Of a stretch of DNA of 64,000 nt, positions 127 through 21,207 are shown piece by piece. Origin of the DNA: Flavisolibacter longurius. Its GTDB lineage: Bacteria > Bacteroidota > Bacteroidia > Chitinophagales > Chitinophagaceae. Numbering within the stretch: position 1 is the stretch's first letter; each line of letters begins with the position of its first letter. Location: NCBI GenBank assembly GCA_014163555.1, contig JACJGO010000027.1, positions 1 through 64,000 of the forward strand, in the 5' to 3' direction. A program made the translations under genes and the position numbers. Below the pieces are notes generated by a model. It was given only the letters and a program-made list of their open reading frames with translations. It was not told where the DNA came from and did not search any database.

Positions 127-461
127 CTTGGACCAGGAGTTCTACAGCCTTCCTATAGTTAAGAAAATTGTCTTTTTGGTGGTTTTACGCATATGAAAGG
201 CATTAATATCAATTTTACCCTTTATTCTTTATTGATACGTGTGTAGCGCTGCTTCCTCGGCATCTGCTTCACTTAAATTTTGTCACGGTTGAATAACTGA
301 CAATCATGTTTCATATATATAAACCGCCTGTATTGGCTATATGTTAACAAATTGCTTGTCTTAGAATCTTTAATTGATTTGCTTCACTTCACCCATCCCA
401 TTCACTATAAAGTATACAAAAATCTGCATGCTTATTCTTAATAATTTTTAAACCCCAATTG
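127..461. other. Intergenic region between the IS end and the first susC gene
   Basis: This A+T-rich stretch of about 335 bp has no convincing open frame. It must hold the promoter and leader of the susC gene at 462 and lies directly beside the IS end, so the insertion may have replaced or displaced original upstream regulatory DNA. No LacI-type palindrome like those elsewhere in the window was seen, and no single promoter could be chosen with confidence. Confidence 0.5.
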
Positions 462-3400
462 ATGAGAAAATTTCTAATGTTAACATGTATGTTGATGATT
501 ACAGGTATTGCCCTGGCGCAACGTACCATTTCAGGAAAAGTTACAGATGCTGAAGGGAAAGCTCTTCCCGGCGCATCCGTACAGATTCAGGGCAGCCAAT
601 CCGGAACGGTTACACGTGAAGACGGAACATTCACACTTACTATTCCGTCAAATGCACGTGTCTTAATTATTTCTTCAGTAGGGCGAAGAACTCAGGAGAT
701 TGCTATTGGAAATCGCACCACAATTGACGTTGTGTTACAACCAGGCGCTGATTCAAATCTACAGGAAGTCGTCGTTGTTGGCTACGGCACGCAGCGAAGA
801 AGAGAGATTACCGGGAATGTGGCAACAATCAAAGGGGAAGCAGTAGAAGACAGGCCTGTTCAAAGTTTTGAGCAAGCACTAGCTGGCCGGGCTGCAGGCG
901 TTCAGATTACGGTTCCAAATGGGCTTCTAAACAACCCGCCGGTATTTCGGATCAGGGGAACAAATTCTATCTCCCTTAGCTCTTATCCATTGGTTGTTAT
1001 TGATGGCGTTCCGACTTATACAGAAAATGCGTTAAGCATCACGGGAGCTCCTGCGAATCCATTGGCCAGTATTAACCCAAATGATATTGAGAGTATCGAT
1101 ATTGCTAAAGATGCTGCCGCCAGTGCCATTTATGGCAGCCGTGCAGCAAATGGAGTTGTTTTCATCACAACAAAGAAGGGGAAGGCAGGAAGAGCAAGGG
1201 TCAGCTATGATGGCTGGGTTGGTTCTAATAAGGCCATGCGTTTACCCGAGGTGATGAATGCAAGTCAATACGTAGCCTATAAGAATGTAGCGCTGGCGAA
1301 TGCCAAAGCAAACAACCCTACTATAACAGGCAGTTTTATCATTCCAAATGATGCGAATGGAACTCCGATCAATACAAATTGGATGGATGAAGTTTACCGC
1401 ACAGGGTTCTCACACAGTCATAATGTAAGTGTTTCGGGTGGCTCAGAAGGAACAACCTATTACTTCTCTGGTGGCTACACAGACCAGGAAGGGATATTGA
1501 AGCGGAATGATTTTGAAAGAGTAAACGCAATGTTGAATGTTGATAGCCGGCTAAACAAAGTTTTGACCATCGGTGGAAAGCTTTCTTATTCGAACGAAAA
1601 AAACTTTACGGGCGGAAGCACTGGATCGCTACCAGGAGAATTGTTTGCCTCTGCCGGAGCGGCTCGTTTGGCATTTGCGTTACCACCGAATGTAGCTCCG
1701 TATAACAACAATGGTACCTACAATACCGGATCAGCCACCGCCATTGGTGGTATGGGTAATTTGGTGAACGGAACGAATCCCTATACGTTTAATAATGTGA
1801 CGATGGTTATGAATTTAAACCGCTCCAATAATGAGGTCAATCACGTTCAGTCCAATGCCTATTTGCAACTAAAACCGTTTAACTGGCTCACCTTACGGAC
1901 AAACTATGGCGTCGATAATTTTCTCATCGATGTTGATATTTTTTACAACCCCTACCATGGCGACGGAGCCCAGACGGGTAACTGGGGACCAGGCGGCGGT
2001 GCTGCAGGTGCCTATACAAAAAATAAGACCTGGCTTTGGACCAATACAGCGCAATTTGATTATAGTTTAAACGAGAGAAACAACTTCAGCTTATTGGTGG
2101 GAAATGAGCAGCAAAGACGTACGCAAATAGGTGCTGGTATTCGTCGGTTGGGATTATCTGATTCGGCTTACAATAATGTACAAGCCGGATTTACCACAGA
2201 GAACATTAATAATGCTCTGCGGTTTGAAAACTATCTGCTTTCGTTGTTCGGTAGGTTGAACTATAACTTCAATCAGAAATACTTTCTGAGCGCTAACATC
2301 AGGCAGGATGAATACTCTGCCCTGGGTATAAAAAAAGGTATATTCTGGGGAGTTTCTGCAGGTTGGGAAATCACGAAAGAAGGTTTCTGGGCATCTGCCA
2401 ACCTGGATCGGGTTTTCAGCAGTTTTCGAATCAGAGGCAGCTATGGAAAGGTCGGAAATATCGGTGGCATCGGGACCTCGTCCACTGTAAGCACCAGTTA
2501 CCCTGCTTTTTCCAGCTATACTTCCAGCTTGTATGGTGGTGTCCCCACGCTTCAGTTCAACTCCGTAGGAAATCCTGAAATTACCTGGGAGACGAGCACA
2601 AAAACGGATGTAGGTTTTAGTTTCGGCTTATTCAACAACCGGTTGACCGGAGATTTTGCTTACTATAAAAATGATATTTACAATCTTCTTCTGAATGTAC
2701 CGCAATCGCCTTCTGCTGGCCTGCCGTCACCAACAGTAGGGGTAGCCGGTAGTCTTTTACAGAACATCGGAAAAATGTACAACAAAGGCGTTGAATTCAG
2801 CCTGACCGGGTCTCCGATCAGTAACAAAAATTTTAGCTGGACATCCTCATTTAATATCTCGTATAACAGAAATGAGGTGACGGCTTTGGCTCCTGGTTTA
2901 ACCCAGATTTTATTTGCAAGTGATCTGGAAACGGTGAACAAAACCACTGTTGGTCAGCCCGTAGGCTACTTGTGGGCTGTTCGTACCGGTGGCGTGGATC
3001 CAGGTACGGGAAGAAGAATTTTTATCAATGCTGCCGGACAGCCTATACATTATGAATTTGGCACAATGCCATCAGGAAAATTCAACTGGCAAACGGCGAC
3101 GGGTACACGTTATGAAAAACTCAATCCCGATGGATCCGTAACACCGCTGCAAATCAATTGGGCTGATGATGCGATTGCTTATGCAAACCCTCATCCCCGG
3201 ATCCTTGGCGGTTGGGATAATTCCTTCCGGATCAGAGATTTTGACGTGAATGTTCTGTTGACTTACCAGGCCGGTTTCTCCGTTTATTATGGGTCCAACG
3301 CCGGTTTGCATGATCAGCGGTTTTGGAACAATGATGTTAATATATTGGACTACTGGCAGAAGAACGGCGATGATGCACAATGGCCAAAGCCGGTTTATGG

Positions 3401-3728
3401 AGACAATGTATCGAACGGGACAACAATGCCGCTAGATATCAACGTTTTCAGAGGCGATTTTGTAAAGTTGAAGAACGTGACGATAGGGTATAGTCTTCCA
3501 AAAAATATATTGAGCCGCGTGAATATTTCAAATGCCCGGTTTTACGTCAGCGGACAAAATCTGGCTATCATCACAAAGTATCCGGGGCCTGATCCTGAAG
3601 TTTCCTCTAACGGAAATGGCAATGTGGTGAATCAGGGTTTGGGAAGCGGTAATCTGAATCCTGGCGTGGACAGGAATACCTTGCCCAATGGTCGCGCCAT
3701 TACAGTAGGTCTGAATCTAAACTTTTAA
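462..3728 (+). CDS. SusC/RagA-family TonB-linked outer-membrane transporter
   Basis: This TonB-dependent outer-membrane transporter of about 1088 residues would import oligosaccharides together with its SusD partner. The ATG at 462 is preferred over the adjacent TTG at 459 because it gives a clean signal peptide ending ITGIALAQ at about residue 20. A carboxypeptidase-regulatory-like beta-sandwich (about 21-107, starting RTISGKVTDAEGKALPG) is followed by the SusC hallmark LQEVVVVGYGTQRR near residue 99, a plug domain with SAIYGSRAANGVVFITTKKG near 220-240, and a long barrel ending in a terminal phenylalanine (VGLNLNF). The gene lies 17 bp upstream of its SusD partner. No hydrolase adjoins the pair, so the substrate cannot be inferred. 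Confidence 0.95.
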   Translation: MRKFLMLTCMLMITGIALAQRTISGKVTDAEGKALPGASVQIQGSQSGTVTREDGTFTLTIPSNARVLIISSVGRRTQEIAIGNRTTIDVVLQPGADSNLQEVVVVGYGTQRRREITGNVATIKGEAVEDRPVQSFEQALAGRAAGVQITVPNGLLNNPPVFRIRGTNSISLSSYPLVVIDGVPTYTENALSITGAPANPLASINPNDIESIDIAKDAAASAIYGSRAANGVVFITTKKGKAGRARVSYDGWVGSNKAMRLPEVMNASQYVAYKNVALANAKANNPTITGSFIIPNDANGTPINTNWMDEVYRTGFSHSHNVSVSGGSEGTTYYFSGGYTDQEGILKRNDFERVNAMLNVDSRLNKVLTIGGKLSYSNEKNFTGGSTGSLPGELFASAGAARLAFALPPNVAPYNNNGTYNTGSATAIGGMGNLVNGTNPYTFNNVTMVMNLNRSNNEVNHVQSNAYLQLKPFNWLTLRTNYGVDNFLIDVDIFYNPYHGDGAQTGNWGPGGGAAGAYTKNKTWLWTNTAQFDYSLNERNNFSLLVGNEQQRRTQIGAGIRRLGLSDSAYNNVQAGFTTENINNALRFENYLLSLFGRLNYNFNQKYFLSANIRQDEYSALGIKKGIFWGVSAGWEITKEGFWASANLDRVFSSFRIRGSYGKVGNIGGIGTSSTVSTSYPAFSSYTSSLYGGVPTLQFNSVGNPEITWETSTKTDVGFSFGLFNNRLTGDFAYYKNDIYNLLLNVPQSPSAGLPSPTVGVAGSLLQNIGKMYNKGVEFSLTGSPISNKNFSWTSSFNISYNRNEVTALAPGLTQILFASDLETVNKTTVGQPVGYLWAVRTGGVDPGTGRRIFINAAGQPIHYEFGTMPSGKFNWQTATGTRYEKLNPDGSVTPLQINWADDAIAYANPHPRILGGWDNSFRIRDFDVNVLLTYQAGFSVYYGSNAGLHDQRFWNNDVNILDYWQKNGDDAQWPKPVYGDNVSNGTTMPLDINVFRGDFVKLKNVTIGYSLPKNILSRVNISNARFYVSGQNLAIITKYPGPDPEVSSNGNGNVVNQGLGSGNLNPGVDRNTLPNGRAITVGLNLNF

Positions 3729-3745
3729 TCAATTTATTTACTAAG

Positions 3746-5191
3746 ATGAGTATTCGAAAAATAATCATAGCTGCCATAGCAGTGCTTTCACTGGCATCTT
3801 GCCGCAGAGACCTGCTTGACGCCATTCCGGAAACAGTGGTATCAGATGCTACTGCGTTTGACCAACCGTATCGAATCACGAACCAGGTGATTTCTTTGTA
3901 TTCTCAATTAAAAAATGGCCAGATATACGGGGGAAGAGTTTTGGTGTATGGCGATATCAGAGGGGAGGATTTTTTAATGGAAGATCCCAATGGAGTTACC
4001 GGAGCGGATATATGGGCACTCAACCCAACCAGTTCCAATAACATCGTCAACAACTTATGGACACAGGCCTACCTTGTTATCAACAATGCCAACGTTTTTA
4101 TTGACGGAATGAATGCAAGAGGCCTTTCCGTTGTAGGAGCAAGCTTGGGCAATAATTATCTCGGTGAGGCAAGACTGATTCGGGCATTGACGTATTATAC
4201 GTTGCTGCAGTTTTATGCCAGGCCATATGCTGATGGGAATGGGAGCAAGCCAGGCGTGCCTTTACGGTTAACCGGAATAAAAGGGCCGGATCAGTCGGAC
4301 ATTGCAAGAAGTACGGTTGCAGAAGTGTATAATCAGATTATTGCAGATCTTGACTTTGCAGAAGCTAACCTGCCCTTGTCCTATGCTACACCATTGCTGA
4401 ATACAACCCGTGCGCATCGCAATACTGCCATTGCTCTCAAAACAAGAGTGTACCTAAGTATGCAGAACTATCAAAAAGTCATTGAAGAAGCCAATAAAAT
4501 AGTGCCTGCAAATGCACCGTTTGTCGCTACATCGGGTGTGGCTCATGCCTTACAGCCCGATATTACAAACGTGTTTAAGACGCCGTACACAACAACGGAG
4601 TCCATATTCTCCATGCCGTTTACGACAACAGCAGGTGATATCCCCGGAACGCAAAATAATCTGCAAGGTTATTACATTGCGAATGCCACAACGGGTGCCG
4701 GTTCTATTTATTCGTTGAACCCTGCCGGTATCATTGGTGATGCAAACTGGAATGCTGCTGACAAAAGACGGTCATTTGTATTTTCAGCACCCAATGGAAA
4801 ACGATACCTGACAAAATTCCCGAATGGCTCTCCTGCCGATTATGTGCCTGTCATCAGATGGGCTGAAGTTTTGTTGAATCTGTCGGAAGCGTTAGCACGA
4901 ACCGGTGGCGGTGTTGATACCAGAGCGGTATCCTTATTGAACGCCGTAAGGCAGCGTTCAGATGCCACTACCACCTTTGCACCAGCAACGCAAGATGAAC
5001 TGATTGCGACTATTTTAAGAGAAAGACGGATTGAGTTTTTGGGTGAGGGACTCAGGAACAACGATTTAATGCGTTTGCTCCAAACCATTCCTGCGAAAGG
5101 ATCGGCTCCAGCCAAATCACCAACGGAAGAAGGATACATCTGGCCCGGACCTTCCACAGAAAAGTCACTGAACAAATTATGGGTTGATTAA
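3746..5191 (+). CDS. SusD/RagB-family outer-membrane glycan-binding lipoprotein
   Basis: This surface lipoprotein of 481 residues would form the lid of the SusC channel encoded 17 bp upstream. It has a lipoprotein signal with lipobox LASC (Cys19), then the SusD_RagB fold with helical TPR-like regions. Typical markers are GEARLIRALTYYTLLQFYARP near residues 140-160, RWAEVLLNLSEALAR near 370, and a C-terminal RRIEFLGEGLRNNDLMRL near 430. The length is normal for the family. A strong terminator follows at 5216, so the transcript probably ends here as a two-gene unit. The glycan is unknown. Confidence 0.93.
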   Translation: MSIRKIIIAAIAVLSLASCRRDLLDAIPETVVSDATAFDQPYRITNQVISLYSQLKNGQIYGGRVLVYGDIRGEDFLMEDPNGVTGADIWALNPTSSNNIVNNLWTQAYLVINNANVFIDGMNARGLSVVGASLGNNYLGEARLIRALTYYTLLQFYARPYADGNGSKPGVPLRLTGIKGPDQSDIARSTVAEVYNQIIADLDFAEANLPLSYATPLLNTTRAHRNTAIALKTRVYLSMQNYQKVIEEANKIVPANAPFVATSGVAHALQPDITNVFKTPYTTTESIFSMPFTTTAGDIPGTQNNLQGYYIANATTGAGSIYSLNPAGIIGDANWNAADKRRSFVFSAPNGKRYLTKFPNGSPADYVPVIRWAEVLLNLSEALARTGGGVDTRAVSLLNAVRQRSDATTTFAPATQDELIATILRERRIEFLGEGLRNNDLMRLLQTIPAKGSAPAKSPTEEGYIWPGPSTEKSLNKLWVD

Positions 5192-5578: not shown

Positions 5579-5933
5579 CGCTTACTGTATGGAAAGAGTA
5601 AGGTGTTTTCCGTTTGTGGTTGGCAAACAGAATGTTGAACTTGGGTAGATCTGATCGTACCCATTGGCAATTAGTATTGACTGCACCTAAAATGCAAACC
5701 TGGTGTCTTTAGAGAATGGTGATAGATTGTGACTACGCAAGATTACACCTTTGTTACCTTCAAGGTTTCCGTATTAATACGGGTTCTTAAAATAGATGGT
5801 TTGCTCACCATGATTTGCTCTCCAATCTGCGGCTGGTTTCCGTATTTCCCACATAGTTTGCCTTTCTTCAGAAACCTACCTTGCAGGCAAATAACACATT
5901 CATCGAACCATATGGTGACAAAACCTTTCCACC

Positions 5934-6254
5934 ATGAGAATTTATGATCCTACCGACAGAAATGTTTTTCTACCCAATGATTTATGCCTGAAGCAGGAAA
6001 AGGCAGAACCAACATTACCATTGCCCCTTAATGATTACCAGCGTGTCATTGAAACCCCTGCATGCATCATCGAAATGTCGCCGGAGCACATCTTTTATTT
6101 CCGCTCTGTCGACTGGAATTTTACTGTATTGATTGAAGTGATCTTTGAGCAGGGGGATTGGATAGCCGTTAATTGTCTCAAGAATCCATCCGCCCCCTAT
6201 ATTTCCGTTTTGTTGAAGAGAGGAAAATTTATTCCTGGTTCTGTTCTTGGTTAA
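5934..6254 (+). CDS. Hypothetical protein, 106 aa
   Basis: This small soluble protein has no signal peptide or membrane segment and I do not recognise its family. The composition looks coding, with acidic/hydrophobic alternation, for example IIEMSPEHIFYFRSVDWNF and VLIEVIFEQGDWIAVNC. It converges on the response regulator gene at 6251 and the two stop codons overlap by 4 bp, an arrangement compatible with a real tightly packed gene. The start is the ATG at 5934; no clear ribosome-binding site helps. Confidence 0.5.
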   Translation: MRIYDPTDRNVFLPNDLCLKQEKAEPTLPLPLNDYQRVIETPACIIEMSPEHIFYFRSVDWNFTVLIEVIFEQGDWIAVNCLKNPSAPYISVLLKRGKFIPGSVLG

Positions 6255-6916
6255 ATTTTATAAAGGCCATGCTTAATGGCATATACCACCAGGGCTGCAG
6301 TACTGTTCTCGTCAATTTTGTGCATGACATTTTCTCGGTGCGTTTCAATCGTACGCGGACTTAAAAACAACTTAGCTGCCATTTCTTTGTTGGTCAGTCC
6401 TTCACAGATCATACGGATGATCTGTGATTCCCGCTCATTAAGTTCAACTTTCTTTTTCTTTCGGTAGGGGTTGAAGGAACTTTTGGCAATCAGTTGGGCC
6501 AGTTTGGTGGATGTGGTCTGGCAGTAATAGGTTTTATTCTGGTAAACGGTTTTGATGGCTTCAACAATTTCGCCCTTGTGGGCCGTTTTCAGCAGGTAAC
6601 CCATTGCGCCGGCTTCCAGCATCTCCACAATCAGGTAGTCTTCATCATAATTGGTGAGGGCAATCACGCCAATATGAGGGAAGGCTTTTTTCATTTCCTG
6701 CGCCACTTCAATGCCATCCCGCTTTGGCATTTTAATATCTGTAATCACTACTTCCGGTTGCAGATTTTGTACAAGGGAGAGCAATGCTTCACCATCCTCA
6801 GCTTGTCCTATTAACTCAATCTCGGGTTCTTTGCTCGTCATTACCGAAAATCCATCGCGAAACAGTTCGTGATCATCGGCAAGAACAATTTTGATAGCCG
6901 TGGGTGATTTTTTCAT
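6251..6916 (-). CDS. NarL/LuxR-family response regulator
   Basis: This two-component DNA-binding regulator of 221 residues has an N-terminal receiver domain (about 8-125) with the acidic pair Asp14/Asp15, phospho-acceptor Asp60 in VVITDIKMPKRDG, a Thr/Ser switch region (ALTNYDED) and Lys near 109 (LLKTAHKG). The C-terminal LuxR-type helix-turn-helix (about 155-215) carries NERESQIIRMICEGLTNKEM and SPRTIETHRENVMHKI. It is the last gene of a four-gene minus-strand operon, 27 bp downstream of the histidine kinase at 6944-7687, its probable phosphodonor. The target genes are unknown. Confidence 0.93.
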   Translation of the reverse strand: MKKSPTAIKIVLADDHELFRDGFSVMTSKEPEIELIGQAEDGEALLSLVQNLQPEVVITDIKMPKRDGIEVAQEMKKAFPHIGVIALTNYDEDYLIVEMLEAGAMGYLLKTAHKGEIVEAIKTVYQNKTYYCQTTSTKLAQLIAKSSFNPYRKKKKVELNERESQIIRMICEGLTNKEMAAKLFLSPRTIETHRENVMHKIDENSTAALVVYAIKHGLYKI

Positions 6917-6943
6917 GTTGTTTGGAGCTTTGGTCCTTATTGT

Positions 6944-7687
6944 TTAAACAGGAATTTCAATGGTGTACAGGGTGCCGGCGCCAGGCTTTGTTTCCACAAA
7001 CAACTCGCCATTTAATATATCCGTCCGGCTCAGGAGGTTGCGCAAGCCATAGCCGCCGCCTTCCTGCAACTTCTCTTCATACGAAAAGCCGCGTCCGTTG
7101 TCTTTTGACATAAGAATAAGTTTGTTGTTCTCACTTTTCAGTGAAAACTGCAAAAGGGTAGCGCCGGCATGTTTGAGGGTGTTGTGTACAATCTCCTGCA
7201 CAATGCGGTAGAGGTGGATGCTCCGGAATTCATCCGGGTGAATATCTTCTGCCATCACCTCAATCTGCAACCCATTTGTTTTTGAAACATAGCTGGCCAG
7301 CTCTTTGATCGCTGCCACAAGTCCTTTGCGTTGCAGCGTCACAGGCATCAGGTTAAATGAAATCTCCCGGAGGCGACGCACCACATCATTCAGATGCTCG
7401 TCCGTTTTTTGCTGTTGCTCCTGGTCTTCCGGTTGGTGCAGCTCAAAACTGCTCACCTTTAGCTTGATGGCGGAGACCAGGGGCGAAAGTTCGTCGTGCA
7501 AATCGGCTGCAATGCGGGCCCTTTCTTTTTCAATGGAGGTCAGTTCTGCTGTTATGTTTTGTTTCTTCAGGTCCAGGTTAATCCGGTGTTGGCGAATCAT
7601 GGAAATGAAAAAATACGCCATCACCGCTCCCAGGAACAGCACCAGGGCAATCACGTAAATGTATATCCTGATTTCTTTGGTATCCAT
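6944..7687 (-). CDS. Sensor histidine kinase, HisKA_3 type (NarX/DesK-like)
   Basis: This membrane-anchored kinase of 247 residues has one transmembrane helix near residues 8-31 and almost no extracytoplasmic part. A short coiled coil follows, then the HisKA_3 dimerisation domain with phospho-acceptor His64 in RIAADLHDELSPL. The HATPase domain has an N-box (RIVQEIVHNTLKHAGA) and G-boxes (DNGRGF, GGYGLRNL). Because it lacks its own sensor domain, its input probably comes from the membrane protein encoded upstream, whose 3' end overlaps this gene by 37 bp. Its partner regulator is downstream. Related kinases control NarL-type regulators. The signal is unknown. Confidence 0.92.
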   Translation of the reverse strand: MDTKEIRIYIYVIALVLFLGAVMAYFFISMIRQHRINLDLKKQNITAELTSIEKERARIAADLHDELSPLVSAIKLKVSSFELHQPEDQEQQQKTDEHLNDVVRRLREISFNLMPVTLQRKGLVAAIKELASYVSKTNGLQIEVMAEDIHPDEFRSIHLYRIVQEIVHNTLKHAGATLLQFSLKSENNKLILMSKDNGRGFSYEEKLQEGGGYGLRNLLSRTDILNGELFVETKPGAGTLYTIEIPV

Positions 7688-8340
7688 AGAATTGCTAAGG
7701 CATAAAGAAGGTTGGTGAATAGGTTGACGAACGCTAAAATATACATAACAGCATTCTGAAAGGGTTCACTTAAATGAGTACCATACATGTAACTGATTTC
7801 AACCAGTATCGCATACGTAAAGAAAACAATCCATCCCAGCGAAATCAGGAAAATGGCATTCTTTCGCAATCCTTTTCTCTCTCTTGCAAGAAGGCGGTTG
7901 ATCATTGAAATGCTCAACAGCGTGATCAGAAAAGAATGCAGGATAATAAAGTACGACGAAAAATTGTACAAAGAGCCCAGGAGCAAGGTTTCGCCAACCC
8001 AGAAAACCGGAAAGAAGATCAACAGTGTTTTGTAAAGAACTGGCGATCGATCGAACAACCGCCAATTTTTAAACTGTACCGTTATGAGCAAACTTTCAAT
8101 CAGGTAAAACAGGTTGTTGTTGACCGCATTGGACTTAATCTGCTTTACCAAGTAAATGGTGGCAATTTCATTTAGGAGACCTGCCCAGATGAAAAATAGA
8201 AAAGGATAGTAGGTGGGATTGATTTTAGAAAAACGAATCCCACCTATCACCGCCGGAAGTAAAATGGAAAAACTAAAAGCTGTAACAAGGTAATAGCTCA
8301 TCAGCCCGAAAATAAGGCAACTAAGGATTTTCTTCTTCAT
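7651..8340 (-). CDS. Multi-pass membrane protein, possible sensor of the adjacent two-component system
   Basis: This protein of about 229 residues has roughly six to seven hydrophobic segments, among them SCLIFGLMSYYLVTAF, YYPFLFFIWAGLLNEIATIY, LLIFFPVFWVGETLLLG, FIILHSFLITLLSIS, IFLISLGWIVFFTYAIL and AVMYILAFVNLFTNLLYAL. The ATG at 8340 is chosen because the longer frame would add a soluble stretch covered by the upstream gene. It overlaps the gene before it by 20 bp and the kinase after it by 37 bp, so the operon is translationally coupled. I do not recognise the family. A seven-helix sensor feeding a domain-poor kinase is an inference from context. Confidence 0.7.
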   Translation of the reverse strand: MKKKILSCLIFGLMSYYLVTAFSFSILLPAVIGGIRFSKINPTYYPFLFFIWAGLLNEIATIYLVKQIKSNAVNNNLFYLIESLLITVQFKNWRLFDRSPVLYKTLLIFFPVFWVGETLLLGSLYNFSSYFIILHSFLITLLSISMINRLLARERKGLRKNAIFLISLGWIVFFTYAILVEISYMYGTHLSEPFQNAVMYILAFVNLFTNLLYALAILWIPKKSGYTFT

Positions 8341-8695
8341 CGGGCGGACAAGTGGGCGGACAACGAACCCCGGTTTCGATAAATCCGGTAAAGTCATCTC
8401 CTTCACTCTCCGGATTGCTTTCATCGGTTGAAGCAATGGGCACAATATTGCGGCCATCTTTGTCCACGCCTACAATAATGGCATGTACGTCCAGCTTTTC
8501 ATCCATGCCATAATAAATGCGAAGGGCAGTGCACCCTTCCTGCGCCAATACCTGGTCAAAAGCGGCCCTGTCAAAGGTTTCTGCATCCGGTACCAGGTAC
8601 CGGCCTTTGTACTCCGGTTGAAATACATAGTCCCGGTTTTCCCGGAAACGCCGGGTCATTTCACGGGCTTGCGCATGCGTAATAAAATGCTTCAT
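8321..8695 (-). CDS. Small hypothetical protein with C-terminal CPPxCPP motif
   Basis: This 124-residue soluble protein is basic at its N-terminus (MKHFITHAQAREMTRRFREN) and acidic later. It ends with GVRCPPTCPPDEEENP, a Cys-Pro-Pro pair repeated three residues apart, followed by an acidic tail. The centre (LAQEGCTALRIYYGMDEKL, DVHAIIVGVDKDGRNIV) looks like an alpha/beta domain. There is no signal peptide. It is the first gene of the operon with the membrane protein, kinase and regulator, overlapping the next gene by 20 bp. The start is taken at the ATG at 8695; an upstream extension to 8797 has weak coding character. The function is unknown, and the two cysteines could bind metal or be redox-active. 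Confidence 0.7.
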   Translation of the reverse strand: MKHFITHAQAREMTRRFRENRDYVFQPEYKGRYLVPDAETFDRAAFDQVLAQEGCTALRIYYGMDEKLDVHAIIVGVDKDGRNIVPIASTDESNPESEGDDFTGFIETGVRCPPTCPPDEEENP

Positions 8696-9269
8696 TCGTA
8701 ATTGTTTAGGTAAAGGCTTCAAAGTTGATGAAATAGAGCGAGAAAAAACCCGTACAAATACGGAGAAGAGGTCTTGCTTGTTTTTTGTATTATTCAAAAC
8801 ATAAAATAGCTGAAGCTGTTTAGTAGGCTGTATTTTATATATGCAAAGGCACGACTAGAGAATTGCTATAGCTTACAACCTAAGATCTCATGCCATTCGA
8901 TCGGAAGCGACAAGGCATAAATTCGGATACCTGAAGCAGTTAACCCTTTGATATTTTAGATAGTAGCAGATTCAAGTTTGGTTTACAAAATCTTCCTTTC
9001 TCAGTTTTTTTTCAACAAAGCCAAAACTTATTATTAACCCTCAAAGACGCTCCTTCATAATCCTTAAAGCACAGCCCATACCCTTCAATACAAATTTTCT
9101 TTGCATTTATCCCACAACTAAAGTGTGACTTTGAAAGTGATGTAATTATTCATTCCGAAAAGAGACGCAACTGTTTTTGAGCAAACGTTTGCATCATCAA
9201 CACACTGGGGGAATGACTAGCTTGTCCACACAAATCAAACTTCACAAAACCATTCTAAATAAAAACGGA
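8696..9269. other. Divergent intergenic region (signalling operon / GH20)
   Basis: About 570 bp separates the minus-strand signalling operon from the plus-strand GH20 gene and must carry promoters in both directions. It is A+T-rich with no convincing gene. The only clear site is the LacI-type palindrome at 9181-9192. A frame open from 9177 into the GH20 gene would read through this palindrome and lacks a signal peptide at its start, so it is taken as leader. Confidence 0.5.
9181..9192. promoter_or_regulatory. LacI-type operator palindrome upstream of GH20
   Basis: GCAAACGTTTGC is a perfect 12-bp palindrome with a central CG, the typical core of LacI/GalR-family operators (consensus TGnAAnCGnTTnCA). 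It lies 78 bp upstream of the GH20 start codon, where a repressor or activator could act. Similar cores occur upstream of GH95 (11846) and of the second susC (24903 and 24960). No LacI-family gene is present in the window. Confidence 0.6.
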
Positions 9270-16708: not shown

Positions 16709-19700
16709 CTAACTTTCTACTGCTTTCGGATCTTCTTCTTTTCGCATCTTGGTCATGTACTCCGAAGGCAACAAACCATATTTTGCTTTGAACGATTTGG
16801 CAAAATAGTTGGGTGTGGAGAACCCGGCAGAATACGCTACCTGCGCAACATTCATGTCGCTTTTTTCAAGCATAACGGCTGCTTTTTCAAGCTTTACCGA
16901 ACGGATATATTCCACCGGCGTTTGTCCTGTCAGTTCCAGCAGCCTGCTGTAAAGTGTACTGCGGCTCATGCCCACATGGCGGCTTAATTCTTCCACCGAT
17001 AATTGTGAGTTGGTCAGGTTTTCTTCGAGGTAAACGGCAATGGTTTGCAACAGCTTTTCATCGGCCGATTGAAACGCAGCTTCAGGTGCCAGTACCTTGA
17101 TTTGTTTGGTATATGTATTCTTCAGCACGTTGTTCAGGTGCAGCGTGTTCCTGATCTTTATGTTCAGCACTTCGAAATTGAAAGGTTTGGTCACATAATC
17201 ATTGGCGCCGGTTTGCAAACCTTTTACCTGGTCTTCTTCGGCGGTTAAGGCTGTCAGTAAAATCACCGGGATATGCCCTGTGCGTTTATCAGCTTTTATT
17301 TTGCGGCAAAAACGAATGCCGTCCATCACCGGCATGCTTACATCACTGACAATCAATTGCGGGTGATGGGCCAACGCTTTTTGCCAGCCTTCTTTGCCAT
17401 TGGCAGCTTCCAGTACCTTGTAATGAAGCCGCAAATTGTCCTTCAGGTAAAACCGGAAATCATCGTTGTCTTCTACCAGTAAAATAACCGGCTTTTCGGT
17501 TGCATCAGAGGTAGCATTAGCAAAGGATGCTTCCCCATCATCATTGGATAGCGCAATGGTTTCTGCCGTTGTTAGCGGCAGGGTTTCCGCCAGGGGTTCC
17601 AATGGAAGCAAGAGGGTAAATGTTGTTCCTTTTTCCAGTTCGCTGTCAACTGTAATGGTGCCGCCATGAAGCTTGACAAACTCCCTGGTAATGGAAAGGC
17701 CAATGCCCGTACCCTGGTTTAAAATAGCAACGGGTGTGGAGGATTGAAAAAAGGTTTCAAAGATCTTTTCTTTTTTGTCGGCCGGTATGCCAATGCCCGA
17801 ATCGCATACTTTCAGGCATATCCCTTTTCCGGAAGCTTCAGCAACATTTTCTCTTTCTTCCACCAGGAGGCGAATGCTTCCTCCCAGCAGGGTAAACTTA
17901 AAGGCGTTGGAAAGAAGATTGAAAAGAATGCGTTCGAGTTTGTCGTGATCAAACCGGGTAAAATAACAAGGTAGCTGGCTCTTCACTTCAAAATGGATTT
18001 CTTTTCTTTCCGCAAGGTCTTTGAAGGAATCGCTTACTTCTTCCACAAACGCCACCAGGTTTCCTTCCGTTGCATTCAGCTGCAATTCCTGCTCTTCCAT
18101 TTTACGAAAATCAAGAAGTTGGTTTACCAGGTTAAGGAGGCGTTTGGCGTTGCGTTTCACCAGTCCCAGATGCACAGCCGCCGTAGTGTTTTTTTGTTGC
18201 TGCAACAAGGTTTCCACCGGCCCAAGGATAAGTGAAATGGGCGTCCGGAATTCATGACTCAGATTGGTCAGGAATTTAATCTTCAGCAAGTCCAGTTCAT
18301 GAATTCGTTCCGCTTCTTTTCGTGCCTGCTCTGTTTTCATTTTTTCCTGCTCAAGGGCAAACTTTCGTTTTAGCTTTTGAATGCCTTTGTGCCGGATAAA
18401 CAGCAGGGTGCCCAAAGTAAGCAAGGCATAAGCAATGTAGGCGTAGGTTGTTCGCCAAAATGGCGGGTGAACTTGAATGCGGATAACAGCACCCTGCTCG
18501 TTCCAAACGCCATCGTTGTTGCTGGCTTTAACCCGGAAGGTATAGGTGCCGGGATCAAGGTTAGTATAGGCGGCTGTAGTGGCATTGCCCACATAATTCC
18601 AGGATTTATCAAACCCCTCCAGCCTGTAGGCATATTGGTTTTGTCCCGCCGCGGTATAAGAAAGGCCAACATAACGCAAGGCAAAACTTTGCCCGTAGGT
18701 TACGTTGATCTCATCGGCAATGGAAATATGGGTTTGCAGCGGGCCGTCTTCTGTGGGAGAAACCGACTGGTTGGCAACGGTTAGTCCTGTGAGCAACACA
18801 GCCGGAATGTTGTTGTTCTTTTTCAGGTAGGCGGTAGTAAAAGAATGAAAGCCTTCCAGCCCGCCAAACAACACATTGCCGTTGGAGAGCAGCAGACCCG
18901 CCCCGCGAACGAAGTTGTTTTGCTGTACACCGTTGTGATGATTAAAGTTGCTGATCTTATTTGTATCCGGTTCAATGGCGCTGATGCCTTTGTTCGAACT
19001 CACCCATTTGCGTCCATTGCTGTCTTCGATGATCTTGTAAACTGCATTGTTCTGCAGGCCGTCTTTTTCAGAAAGCACGGTAATAACTCCGGTTTGCCGG
19101 TTCAGAATGCCGATGCCGCCACCAAGGGTTCCCGCCCAAATGTTGCCGGCACGGTCTTCCAGTAAGGTTTGCACTTTATCGTTCGGGAGCTTGCTGTTTT
19201 CGGTATGGTAAATTGCAAACTTTTTTGTTTGTATGTTGTAGCTGGCAATGCCGCCGCCATGGGTGGCCAGCCAGATATTCCCAGTCCTGTCTTCAATTAT
19301 ATCCCGTATAAAACCATTGATCGGCAAAAGCACATCAAGCGGTGTTTTTGGCGCCGGTGTCAGTCGGAATTTTACCTTCCGGTTTTTATCCAGCACATTG
19401 ATCCCATCGCCGTTTGTGCCCAGCCAGAGATTGCCGGCACGGTCTTCCATGGTACAGAAAATGTCGTTTGAATTCAGGTCCTGCGGGTTAGGCCCTTTCA
19501 GCAGTTGCGCAACCTTGCCAGAGCGGGGTTCAAAGATGAACAGACCATCGCCATAACTGCCTACATAAAGCTGCCCGGCCTTGCTCATGGTCAGCGACAG
19601 CACGGGACGATGATTTCCGCCACCAGGCCTTTTTGAGGAGAGCGGAAGCTGCTGAAACCATCTTGTTTGCTGGTCATAAAGACTGAGACCTGCTTCGGTG

Positions 19701-20854
19701 CCCACAAACACCCGTCCGTCCGGCGCTTCGGCAAATGTGTTTACCATGGGTGAGTTCAAGCCTTTTGCATCAAAGACATGGCTTTGAATATGGCTGAACA
19801 GATTCAGGTTTTTGTCGTACTTGTTTACCCCATTGCCCGGCGTACCAAACCAGAAGATGCCTTCTTTATCAAGCCAGAGACTGCGCACAGTTGGTGCACT
19901 GAGGCTGTGAATATTCCGTTGGTCATGCGTAAACCGCCTTGCCTGTCCGGATTTTGTATCAAACAATAAAACGCCGTTGCCGGTAGCCAGCCAGAGTTTG
20001 TCCTTGTCAACTCCAATGTTATTGATGTAATTGGCGCTTTGCATGAGATGAAGGCTTTGCTTCTCGTGCCGGAAGTTTACAAACGACGAACGGCCGGGAA
20101 CCAGTTTGCTCAATCCTCTGTCGGTGCCGACCCACAGATTGCCGGCTCCGTCTTCGACAATAGCATTTACCTCGTTTCCGGCAAGGCTTTGGGTGTCGCT
20201 ATCGCTGTGCAGGAATTGCCGGGTAGTGTTTGTTGCGGGATTGTATTGCCAAAGGCCTTCGCTCGTGCCGATCCAGATCTGTTTTTTGCGGTCTTCCAAA
20301 AAGCAAATGCTGTGCAGGGTAGATGTTGAACCGGTTAATCTTGATGGAAGCCTGATGCGGCTGATTTTTCCTGTTTTCGGATCGAGTCGGTTAACGCCGT
20401 TGTAATGCCCGATCCAGAGATTGCCGGTATGATCGCTGAGGATTGCCCTGATAACATTGTTGTCAATGCTGTTGCCGGAGTTATTTGCCGGAAAGGTGAA
20501 AAAAGCATCTGTCTTCCGGTCGTACAGGCTTAACGATCCGCCACTGGTACCCACCCAAATATTACCGGTTTTGTCTTCGTGCAGCGAAAGAATTTCATTT
20601 GCCTGGAGGCTGGATTTATCACCCGGTTTATGCCGGTAAGCCGTAAAGTGGTTGCCGTCAAATTTATTCAGGCCGTCTTCTGTACCAAACCACATAAAGC
20701 CGTACCGGTCTTTTATAATCGCATTCACCGTGTTCGACGATAAACCGTCTTTAGTGGTGAGGACTGTAAAGTTGATGTTTGGCTGTTGTGCAACAGCAAT
20801 CTGCGCAAGCAGAAAGGCTGAAAAGAGCAGCAGCAGAAATCGAACGTTTCTCAT
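16709..20854 (-). CDS. Hybrid two-component system regulator (HTCS) with Reg_prop propeller sensor
   Basis: This single-protein signalling system of about 1381 residues has a signal peptide (ending IAVAQQ) and a periplasmic sensor of two seven-bladed propellers built from Reg_prop repeats (for example EDRTGNIWLATHGGGIASYN) over about 25-690. A Y_Y_Y domain and a transmembrane helix near 795-815 follow. The histidine kinase part has NLSHEFRTPISLILGP near residue 868 and an ATPase domain with GTGIGLSITREFVKLHGG. The receiver (from about 1121) carries the phospho-acceptor in VSDVSMPVMDG, and an AraC-type helix-turn-helix forms the C-terminus. HTCS proteins bind an oligosaccharide directly and activate the adjacent utilization locus. 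The divergent GH43/GH51 genes are the obvious targets. Start taken at ATG 20854. Confidence 0.96.
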   Translation of the reverse strand: MRNVRFLLLLFSAFLLAQIAVAQQPNINFTVLTTKDGLSSNTVNAIIKDRYGFMWFGTEDGLNKFDGNHFTAYRHKPGDKSSLQANEILSLHEDKTGNIWVGTSGGSLSLYDRKTDAFFTFPANNSGNSIDNNVIRAILSDHTGNLWIGHYNGVNRLDPKTGKISRIRLPSRLTGSTSTLHSICFLEDRKKQIWIGTSEGLWQYNPATNTTRQFLHSDSDTQSLAGNEVNAIVEDGAGNLWVGTDRGLSKLVPGRSSFVNFRHEKQSLHLMQSANYINNIGVDKDKLWLATGNGVLLFDTKSGQARRFTHDQRNIHSLSAPTVRSLWLDKEGIFWFGTPGNGVNKYDKNLNLFSHIQSHVFDAKGLNSPMVNTFAEAPDGRVFVGTEAGLSLYDQQTRWFQQLPLSSKRPGGGNHRPVLSLTMSKAGQLYVGSYGDGLFIFEPRSGKVAQLLKGPNPQDLNSNDIFCTMEDRAGNLWLGTNGDGINVLDKNRKVKFRLTPAPKTPLDVLLPINGFIRDIIEDRTGNIWLATHGGGIASYNIQTKKFAIYHTENSKLPNDKVQTLLEDRAGNIWAGTLGGGIGILNRQTGVITVLSEKDGLQNNAVYKIIEDSNGRKWVSSNKGISAIEPDTNKISNFNHHNGVQQNNFVRGAGLLLSNGNVLFGGLEGFHSFTTAYLKKNNNIPAVLLTGLTVANQSVSPTEDGPLQTHISIADEINVTYGQSFALRYVGLSYTAAGQNQYAYRLEGFDKSWNYVGNATTAAYTNLDPGTYTFRVKASNNDGVWNEQGAVIRIQVHPPFWRTTYAYIAYALLTLGTLLFIRHKGIQKLKRKFALEQEKMKTEQARKEAERIHELDLLKIKFLTNLSHEFRTPISLILGPVETLLQQQKNTTAAVHLGLVKRNAKRLLNLVNQLLDFRKMEEQELQLNATEGNLVAFVEEVSDSFKDLAERKEIHFEVKSQLPCYFTRFDHDKLERILFNLLSNAFKFTLLGGSIRLLVEERENVAEASGKGICLKVCDSGIGIPADKKEKIFETFFQSSTPVAILNQGTGIGLSITREFVKLHGGTITVDSELEKGTTFTLLLPLEPLAETLPLTTAETIALSNDDGEASFANATSDATEKPVILLVEDNDDFRFYLKDNLRLHYKVLEAANGKEGWQKALAHHPQLIVSDVSMPVMDGIRFCRKIKADKRTGHIPVILLTALTAEEDQVKGLQTGANDYVTKPFNFEVLNIKIRNTLHLNNVLKNTYTKQIKVLAPEAAFQSADEKLLQTIAVYLEENLTNSQLSVEELSRHVGMSRSTLYSRLLELTGQTPVEYIRSVKLEKAAVMLEKSDMNVAQVAYSAGFSTPNYFAKSFKAKYGLLPSEYMTKMRKEEDPKAVES

Positions 20855-21207
20855 AATGTATAGCAAGTCAAAAAAGAACGGCGGTGCCGGTAAAGATGAC
20901 TGCCCAATCTAAAACATTTTTTTAAAATAGGTGTCCGGGTCCAAGGAATGAACGGTCGGACGAATAAATCCTTCCCGGTTGGCGATCGGCTGATGGCCTT
21001 CGGCCGGCTATATGTAGCGGATGATATAAACTATACAAAAAGCACTGATCCTTTCCTGCGTTCATGTCTGCCGTAAGCGAATCTTATCCGGAAATAAAAA
21101 CTCTTTGCGTACGGCATCTTCATCTTCAATATTTTCATGGGGTGAGAAAGCGGAATGAAAGATCGTTTTGCAGCGAAAGAATGTTGTTACAAGCCTAATC
21201 AAAAATC
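20855..21207. other. Divergent promoter region between the HTCS and GH43
   Basis: About 350 bp separates the two divergent genes. It should contain both promoters and the DNA sites of the AraC-type domain of the regulator. No LacI-type core is present. I could not pick an AraC-type direct repeat by eye, and no open frame looks coding. Confidence 0.45.

Follow-up and report, generated by a model that had tools for sequence, protein, structure and literature searches.

A probable four-component signalling system of Bacteroidota with a stand-alone seven-helix receptor and a Cys-Pro-tailed partner protein

A compact group of four genes lies in a stretch of 64,000 nucleotides of Flavisolibacter longurius (contig JACJGO010000027.1, family Chitinophagaceae), referred to here as the window. 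The genes encode, in order, a small protein with a C-terminal CPxxC tail, a seven-transmembrane (7TM) protein, a histidine kinase and a response regulator (Table 1). The quartet is a real, widely kept four-component system. It is a new variant of two-component signalling and brings with it two unnamed protein families, which together with the kinase and the regulator hold their gene order across several families of the phylum. We place at about 0.7 the probability that it is a signalling system in which a stand-alone 7TM protein is the receptor and the CPxxC-tailed protein its partner. Gene order, the conserved tail, the predicted 7TM topology, chain-like co-divergence and a positioned palindrome were computed directly. 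No description of such a four-gene system was seen among the papers listed by searches limited to open-licence literature.

In the proposed mechanism, the sensorless kinase would take its input from the separate 7TM protein acting as a receptor, and the small protein would be a dedicated partner of that receptor. The small protein would work through its C-terminal tail, E-x-G-x-[RP]-C-P-x-x-C-P, which might dock on the 7TM bundle or serve as a thiol- or metal-sensitive switch. The kinase would phosphorylate the LuxR-type regulator. Targets of the regulator probably include its own operon, reached through a palindrome 50-79 nt ahead of the small gene, and perhaps, in certain relatives, the neighbouring SusC/SusD-redoxin-MauE genes.

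The profile search and gene-neighbourhood survey proposed in the first-pass annotation of this DNA found the quartet, with its CPxxC tail, recurring in order in many Bacteroidota. The small protein is present in 66 of 195 genomes of the family at E 0.001, with one match in its own genome; a single-protein scan of genome contigs gave no relative. The matches comprised 89 rows besides the window, of which 60 were fetched, and five more places were added later (L082 and L159, the latter the same place as L084, are re-fetched duplicates). Searches with single sequences show the four genes in the same order and on one strand in the window and at 51 of these 60 family loci. Incomplete loci take several forms. 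Two stop at contig ends (L061, L076), two have the regulator nearby on the opposite strand (L058, L078), and in two the 7TM gene is detected by profile only and the regulator is divergent (L084, L087). L062 has two membrane open reading frames (ORFs) resembling, by eye, diverged 7TM genes, followed by kinase and regulator, and in L060 only the start of the 7TM gene appears, again by eye, to be left. L086 was considered as a fusion of small protein and kinase and rejected; it lacks the tail, the 7TM gene and the kinase start and is read as a deletion remnant. All 35 loci of named genomes, including Niabella, Terrimonas, Lacibacter, Parafilimonas and Ferruginibacter, carry the four genes in order, with one small gene truncated where its contig stops and one kinase divided between two frames; these are partly the same places as the 60 family loci (for example, L160 is L040).

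The linkage extends beyond the family. Profiles of the small protein and the 7TM protein match at least 28 and at least 49 of 296 genomes of the phylum, respectively, and these numbers are lower bounds because the genome scans score only some first-look candidates (12 in the small-protein scan, 10 in the 7TM scan). The wider set fetched comprised 39 loci, 31 outside the family and eight within it. Outside the family, a kinase lies downstream at 27 of 31 loci and all four genes are ordered at 26 of 31; at L124 the kinase is present and the regulator was not seen. Twelve of the 26 outside-family quartets are silent to the 7TM profile (L125-L127, L131, L136, L141, L142, L144-L148); the 7TM position is occupied there by an ORF 208-229 aa long that has 6-7 hydrophobic segments.

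Loci reached through the 7TM protein were also collected. Of the 7TM matches at E 1e-40 or better in 79 genomes, compared by eye, 33 of 34 have a small-protein match directly upstream, the sole exception being in genome G021. A first 7TM-anchored set took the 20 best 7TM matches without a small-protein row. The kinase is present at 20 of 20 and the regulator at 18 of 20; at the remaining two the contig ends first. A small ORF lies upstream at 19 of 20, every one with CPxxC in its C-terminal part; eight of these 19 have a second conserved end after the motif, and nine match the small-protein profile weakly if the short locus alone is searched. A second set consisted of 20 weaker or more distant matches, two from the window's own genome and 18 hand-picked. 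Here 16 of 20 have a kinase and 8 of 20 a small ORF with CPxxC, one of these eight (L242) being without kinase; in L228, L229 and L244 the Cys-Pro end is shortened. The quartet is thus strictly linked among loci close to the window and more loosely among distant ones. Small or membrane proteins occurring mostly apart from the kinase and regulator, the pattern named in the first-pass annotation as speaking against a defined system, is the reverse of what these loci hold (51/60, 35/35 and 26/31 with the quartet in order; kinase at 20/20 and 16/20). In the window's own genome, contig C21 carries a 7TM-kinase-regulator group with an 88-aa ORF ending near CPKPPC (L228), and contig C58 carries another with no small ORF of at least 75 aa ahead of the 7TM gene (L227).

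Pairwise divergence among 101 distinct complete quartets orders the components further. Partial correlations are 0.66 between small protein and 7TM protein, 0.72 between kinase and regulator, 0.32 between 7TM protein and kinase and 0.20 between 7TM protein and regulator; those of the small protein with kinase (-0.05) and regulator (-0.17) are below zero. The correlation of small protein and 7TM protein was reached by none of 500 label permutations. This pattern fits a chain. The overlap of the 7TM and kinase genes is likewise patterned beyond chance: 44 of 121 distinct pairs overlap by exactly 40 nt, and of the 84 overlaps between 31 and 60 nt long, 83 share one reading-frame relation. No fusion of 7TM protein and kinase was found among the ORFs searched. 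An ordinary co-transcription, in which a small protein of unrelated function happens to share the operon, could account for the few loci without a small gene (L195, L227, L245). It is very improbable in our judgement, since linkage of the quartet holds outside the family and co-divergence of the small protein is seen with the 7TM protein but with neither kinase nor regulator.

In the window, the small-protein and 7TM genes share 20 bp, the 7TM and kinase genes share 37 bp, and a 27-bp gap separates kinase and regulator; the spacing given in the first-pass annotation was exact to the base by ORF coordinates. The kinase, of the HisKA_3 class, has HisKA_3 and HATPase_c domains above the Pfam gathering scores and no further domain above cut-off. 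A single hydrophobic N-terminal segment appears to form one transmembrane helix, which bears out the earlier description of a kinase with one anchor helix and no sensor of its own. The regulator has Response_reg and GerE domains, also above gathering scores, that is, a receiver and a LuxR-type helix-turn-helix (HTH). With all four domains in place, the pair has the domain make-up of a two-component system. By sequence, the putative phosphotransfer residues are present as His64 in the kinase H-box and Asp60 in the regulator.

The membrane protein was modelled by AlphaFold2 as seven helices with a mean predicted local distance difference test (pLDDT) score of 94.1 and a predicted TM-score (pTM) of 0.89. 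Averaged over 50 sequences, Lys and Arg number 3.2, 3.1 and 2.8 in the inner loops and 2.2 at the C-terminal end, versus 0.7 in each outer loop. A stand-alone 7TM bundle is confidently predicted, and the positive-inside rule places its N-terminus outside and its C-terminus inside. Together with the co-divergence, this topology fits the earlier suggestion that the membrane protein is the input module. Conservation in the same 50 sequences is higher in the inner halves of the helices (0.42) than in the outer halves (0.33). Four outer-half residues, E58, N76, W114 and E181, are 94-97% conserved in the closer set (alignment A6), in which N206 is invariant; alignment A3 has no invariant column and only W114 at 90% or more. 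An invariant Cys/His pair, which AgrB-like protease residues would form, occurs in neither alignment. The window protein has no match in Pfam at E 1 and none in NCBIfam. The 50 membrane proteins share no Pfam or NCBIfam family, and single-member matches only were found (best MreD, E 0.0003); the sensor families 7TMR-DISM and 5TMR-LYT are not among the 15 families listed for them at E 0.1. At L123, L139, L150 and L153, two to three tandem 7TM genes stand behind one small gene.

The small protein consists of an alpha/beta domain, an acidic linker and the C-terminal RCPPTCPP tail (AlphaFold2 mean pLDDT 76.9; linker below 50). It has no Pfam family at E 1 and a single NCBIfam match at 0.19, and the 59 small proteins scanned share no Pfam or NCBIfam family, such matches being confined to single members. 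A profile search of solved structures yielded nothing beyond a single match at E 0.75, which was judged to be noise. A likeness to PAS/LOV domains was rejected (Foldseek best E 0.39, TM-score about 0.2). In L137 and L155 the domain is repeated within one ORF of 250 and 277 aa, respectively.

The tail is conserved. All 35 rows of alignment A2, made of small proteins without signal peptide, have C112, P113, C116 and P117 (CPxxCP), and C112, P113 and C116 are invariant in the 33 rows of alignment A5. The consensus from 100 small proteins with a short end is E-x-G-x-[RP]-C-P-P-x-C-P-x-x-S-P-L-N. Among 131 distinct kinase-anchored loci, the C-terminal 75 residues encoded by the small ORF contain CPxxC in 108 cases, CxxxC in eight and CPPC in one, compared with CPxxC in 10 of 1559 other genes of the same loci (counted before duplicate removal). 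A tail that is not conserved, raised earlier as a possible objection, is not what is seen. The 7TM-anchored sets are the fairer test, since most of the 131 loci were fetched through the small protein.

What the tail does is less settled, and a redox or metal switch and a docking or tethered peptide are both possible, each at clearly under even odds; some other role is unlikely and a released peptide improbable. Under the first of these, the CPxxC motif would be the sensor, responding to a metal ion or to the redox state, and the module would act on envelope genes with a redox or metal role. Of the 131 distinct loci, 117 have a Cys pair accompanied by prolines, and MauE and redoxin genes lie beside the quartet at 19 and 14 of 135 loci, respectively (duplicates included). 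The CPDxCP variant of several tails resembles the copper motif of Sco1, a lead only. However, the redox cassette accompanies part of the loci and is absent from the window, A2 has no further invariant Cys or His, five loci retain the first Cys only (L136, L142, L144, L147 and L148, with CPPxxDPxSPL), and L065, L071 and L081 end without a Cys pair.

If the tail is instead a tethered ligand, Bacteroidota may possess a peptide-receptor-like signalling in which a 7TM family reads a co-encoded Cys-Pro tail and signals to a sensorless kinase. Different sensor domains would then be mounted on a constant tail, as at L214, where a 262-aa upstream protein has CPxxC and otherwise no match to the small-protein profile. 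This joint reading is quite unlikely at present.

A pheromone system of the Agr type would make the small protein a precursor whose tail is cleaved and released, with the 7TM protein processing or receiving the peptide. Agr quorum sensing (agrBDCA) also has four genes, for a small protein, a multi-pass protein, a kinase and a regulator, and one Flaviaesturariibacter metagenome-assembled genome holds five quartet loci. In the quartet the tail is kept while the linker, and sometimes the domain, varies, the reverse of what a pheromone precursor would lead one to expect. The 7TM alignments lack the invariant Cys/His pair, the kinase and regulator belong to other classes, and the flanks have no recurrent gene for modification or export. 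We regard an Agr-type pheromone as improbable. A precursor of a ribosomally synthesized and post-translationally modified peptide was rejected, since the listed clusters of flanking genes include no recurrent modifying enzyme.

The small protein was described in the first-pass annotation as cytosolic, and this is unsafe. A crude test finds an export-like N-terminus, often with a lipobox, in 24 of 129 small proteins and none in the other 105. The test replaced an earlier lipobox test that gave false positives (L064, L078); of the proteins that look exported by eye, it did not flag L208, and L130, L134 and L135 were outside the set or unflagged. At L146 (5494-7290), a small protein lacking a signal peptide is encoded in one operon together with a lipoprotein-like protein of 249 aa that has a CPPLC tail.

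Several observations weigh against the proposed receptor and partner. A single docking side for the small protein would not fit all loci, given those with and without apparent export. No kinase match was found at L123, L130, L135 and L155 (L152 reaches a contig end), nor at L232, L239, L241 and L242 of the second 7TM-anchored set; L155, one of the eight additional family loci, has the small domain with none of the remaining genes adjoining. 7TM loci without a detected small gene include L195, L227 and L245. Among the 131 kinase-anchored loci, 12 have none of CPxxC, CxxxC or CPPC in the last 75 residues, some keeping one Cys, and two have no small ORF at all. The best 50 of 627 Foldseek matches of the 7TM model are G protein-coupled receptors, and this fold match is weak (best E 0.029, none at E 0.001; TM-score at most 0.50). 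Co-divergence may retain shared history that the remaining genes do not remove. Finally, we infer the physical contacts, as we do signal direction, phosphotransfer and autoregulation, and the contacts in particular count on this side.

The control region is consistent with autoregulation. The window has the candidate operator CCGTAnnnnTACGG ahead of the small gene, read as CCGTATTTGTACGG in the operon direction. Dyads of the form N5-n4-N5 with centres 50-79 nt before the small gene occur in 22 of 57 loci, counted once per locus, compared with a mean of about 2.2 in 200 shuffles; some of the 22 loci are close relatives. These 57 upstream regions were kept from 77 by omitting 20 (lipoprotein-type loci, L060, L062, L084 and L087). 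In all 77 regions, the best exact dyad has arms of at least 6 in 43, versus 17-26 in six shuffles. The arms vary by locus (CCGTA, GCGTA, TACAA, CAGTA and others) yet stay paired. Two copies lie 21-22 nt apart in L059, L067 and L073, and L031, L053 and L057 have a second copy beyond the regulator. A whole-genome regulon based on counts of CCGTAnnnnTACGG was rejected, with 10 sites versus 11 for the reversed control; the only unusual point among the ten is that two lie 3 kb apart at this locus.

The position of the small gene, first behind a candidate autoregulated promoter, also suits a negative feedback regulator or accessory protein like LiaF or QseG, with the 7TM protein alone sensing the stimulus. 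Both are described accessory proteins, and L195 and L227, with 7TM protein, kinase and regulator, have no detected small gene. An accessory of this kind would leave unexplained why the tail is kept where the rest of the protein is unmatched (L214), and we consider it somewhat doubtful.

The quartet is convergent with a SusC-like and a SusD-like gene, and the window has no MauE or redoxin gene beside it. Flanks of 135 loci (duplicates included) contain small AraC-type HTH proteins (34), SusD (22), MauE (PF07291; 19), AhpC-TSA/redoxin proteins (14) and SusC (11). L036, L039, L078, L165 and others have a whole or partial cassette of AraC-type HTH, MauE, small secreted Cys protein, redoxin, SusD and SusC; the secreted protein of L078 matches DUF6520 below its cut-off. 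SusC and SusD being large families, their neighbourhood with the quartet may or may not be of common descent. Bacteroidota have many SusC/SusD uptake systems, and the module points to a further way of controlling these. The 106-aa ORF next to the quartet was rejected as part of the module, being matched in 2 of 98 family genomes, its own included. The 1385-aa hybrid-like regulator sits among carbohydrate-active genes and esterases.

Table 1. Features of the quartet locus and its surroundings in the window
Feature	Position	Strand	Remarks
Small-protein gene	8321..8695	-	124 aa; ends RCPPTCPPDEEENP
Tail codons C112-P118 (CPPTCPP)	8342..8362	-	alignment A2
Membrane-protein (7TM) gene	7651..8340	-	229 aa counted from ATG at 8340
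Histidine kinase gene, HisKA_3 class	6944..7687	-	247 aa
Response regulator gene, REC + LuxR/GerE HTH	6251..6916	-	221 aa
Palindrome CCGTAnnnnTACGG, candidate operator	8750..8763		centre 61 nt ahead of small-gene ATG
Second exact palindrome copy	5769..5782		past regulator end
SusC-like gene	459..3728	+	convergent neighbour of quartet
SusD-like gene	3746..5191	+	convergent neighbour of quartet
106-aa ORF	5934-6254	+	after second palindrome
1385-aa protein, hybrid two-component regulator look by sequence	16709-20866	-	kinase, receiver, AraC-type HTH

Known systems share parts of this arrangement. LiaFSR combines a membrane accessory protein with a HisKA_3-class kinase and a LuxR-type regulator, but LiaF is not known to be a 7TM protein and no CPxxC partner is known there. 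The Pfam and NCBIfam libraries contain LiaF models, and LiaF is not among the families listed for the 50 7TM proteins; the NCBIfam LiaS model matches the window kinase at 3e-27 with 95.7 bits, against a cut-off of 450. In UhpABC a multi-pass partner likewise lies upstream of a HisKA_3-class kinase and a LuxR-type regulator. UhpC, however, is transporter-like, UhpB has its own multi-pass domain, and no small protein is known there; the UhpB model matches the window kinase at 2.9e-21 (75.8 bits, cut-off 408). The best NCBIfam matches of the kinase and regulator are MctS (5.2e-34) and MctR (4.2e-45), both far below cut-off, so that by NCBI cut-offs they are not the same equivalogs. QseG-QseE is not known to have a 7TM receptor, and any likeness to the small protein would be one of role. 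The lipoprotein QseG is an accessory that acts on the histidine kinase QseE (PMC12691602). In BtsS, a published 7TM kinase, the N-terminus is periplasmic and the ligand residues lie on the periplasmic side (PMC10653868). BtsS, other LytS-type kinases and the 7TMR-DISM receptors have seven helices and a periplasmic N-terminus, the architecture predicted for the membrane protein of the quartet. The 7TM domain of BtsS is located inside the kinase and contains 5TMR-LYT, whereas that of the quartet is a separate gene without a 5TMR-LYT match. With the receptor, its partner protein and the kinase each encoded by a gene of its own, 7TM-to-kinase signalling becomes testable part by part.

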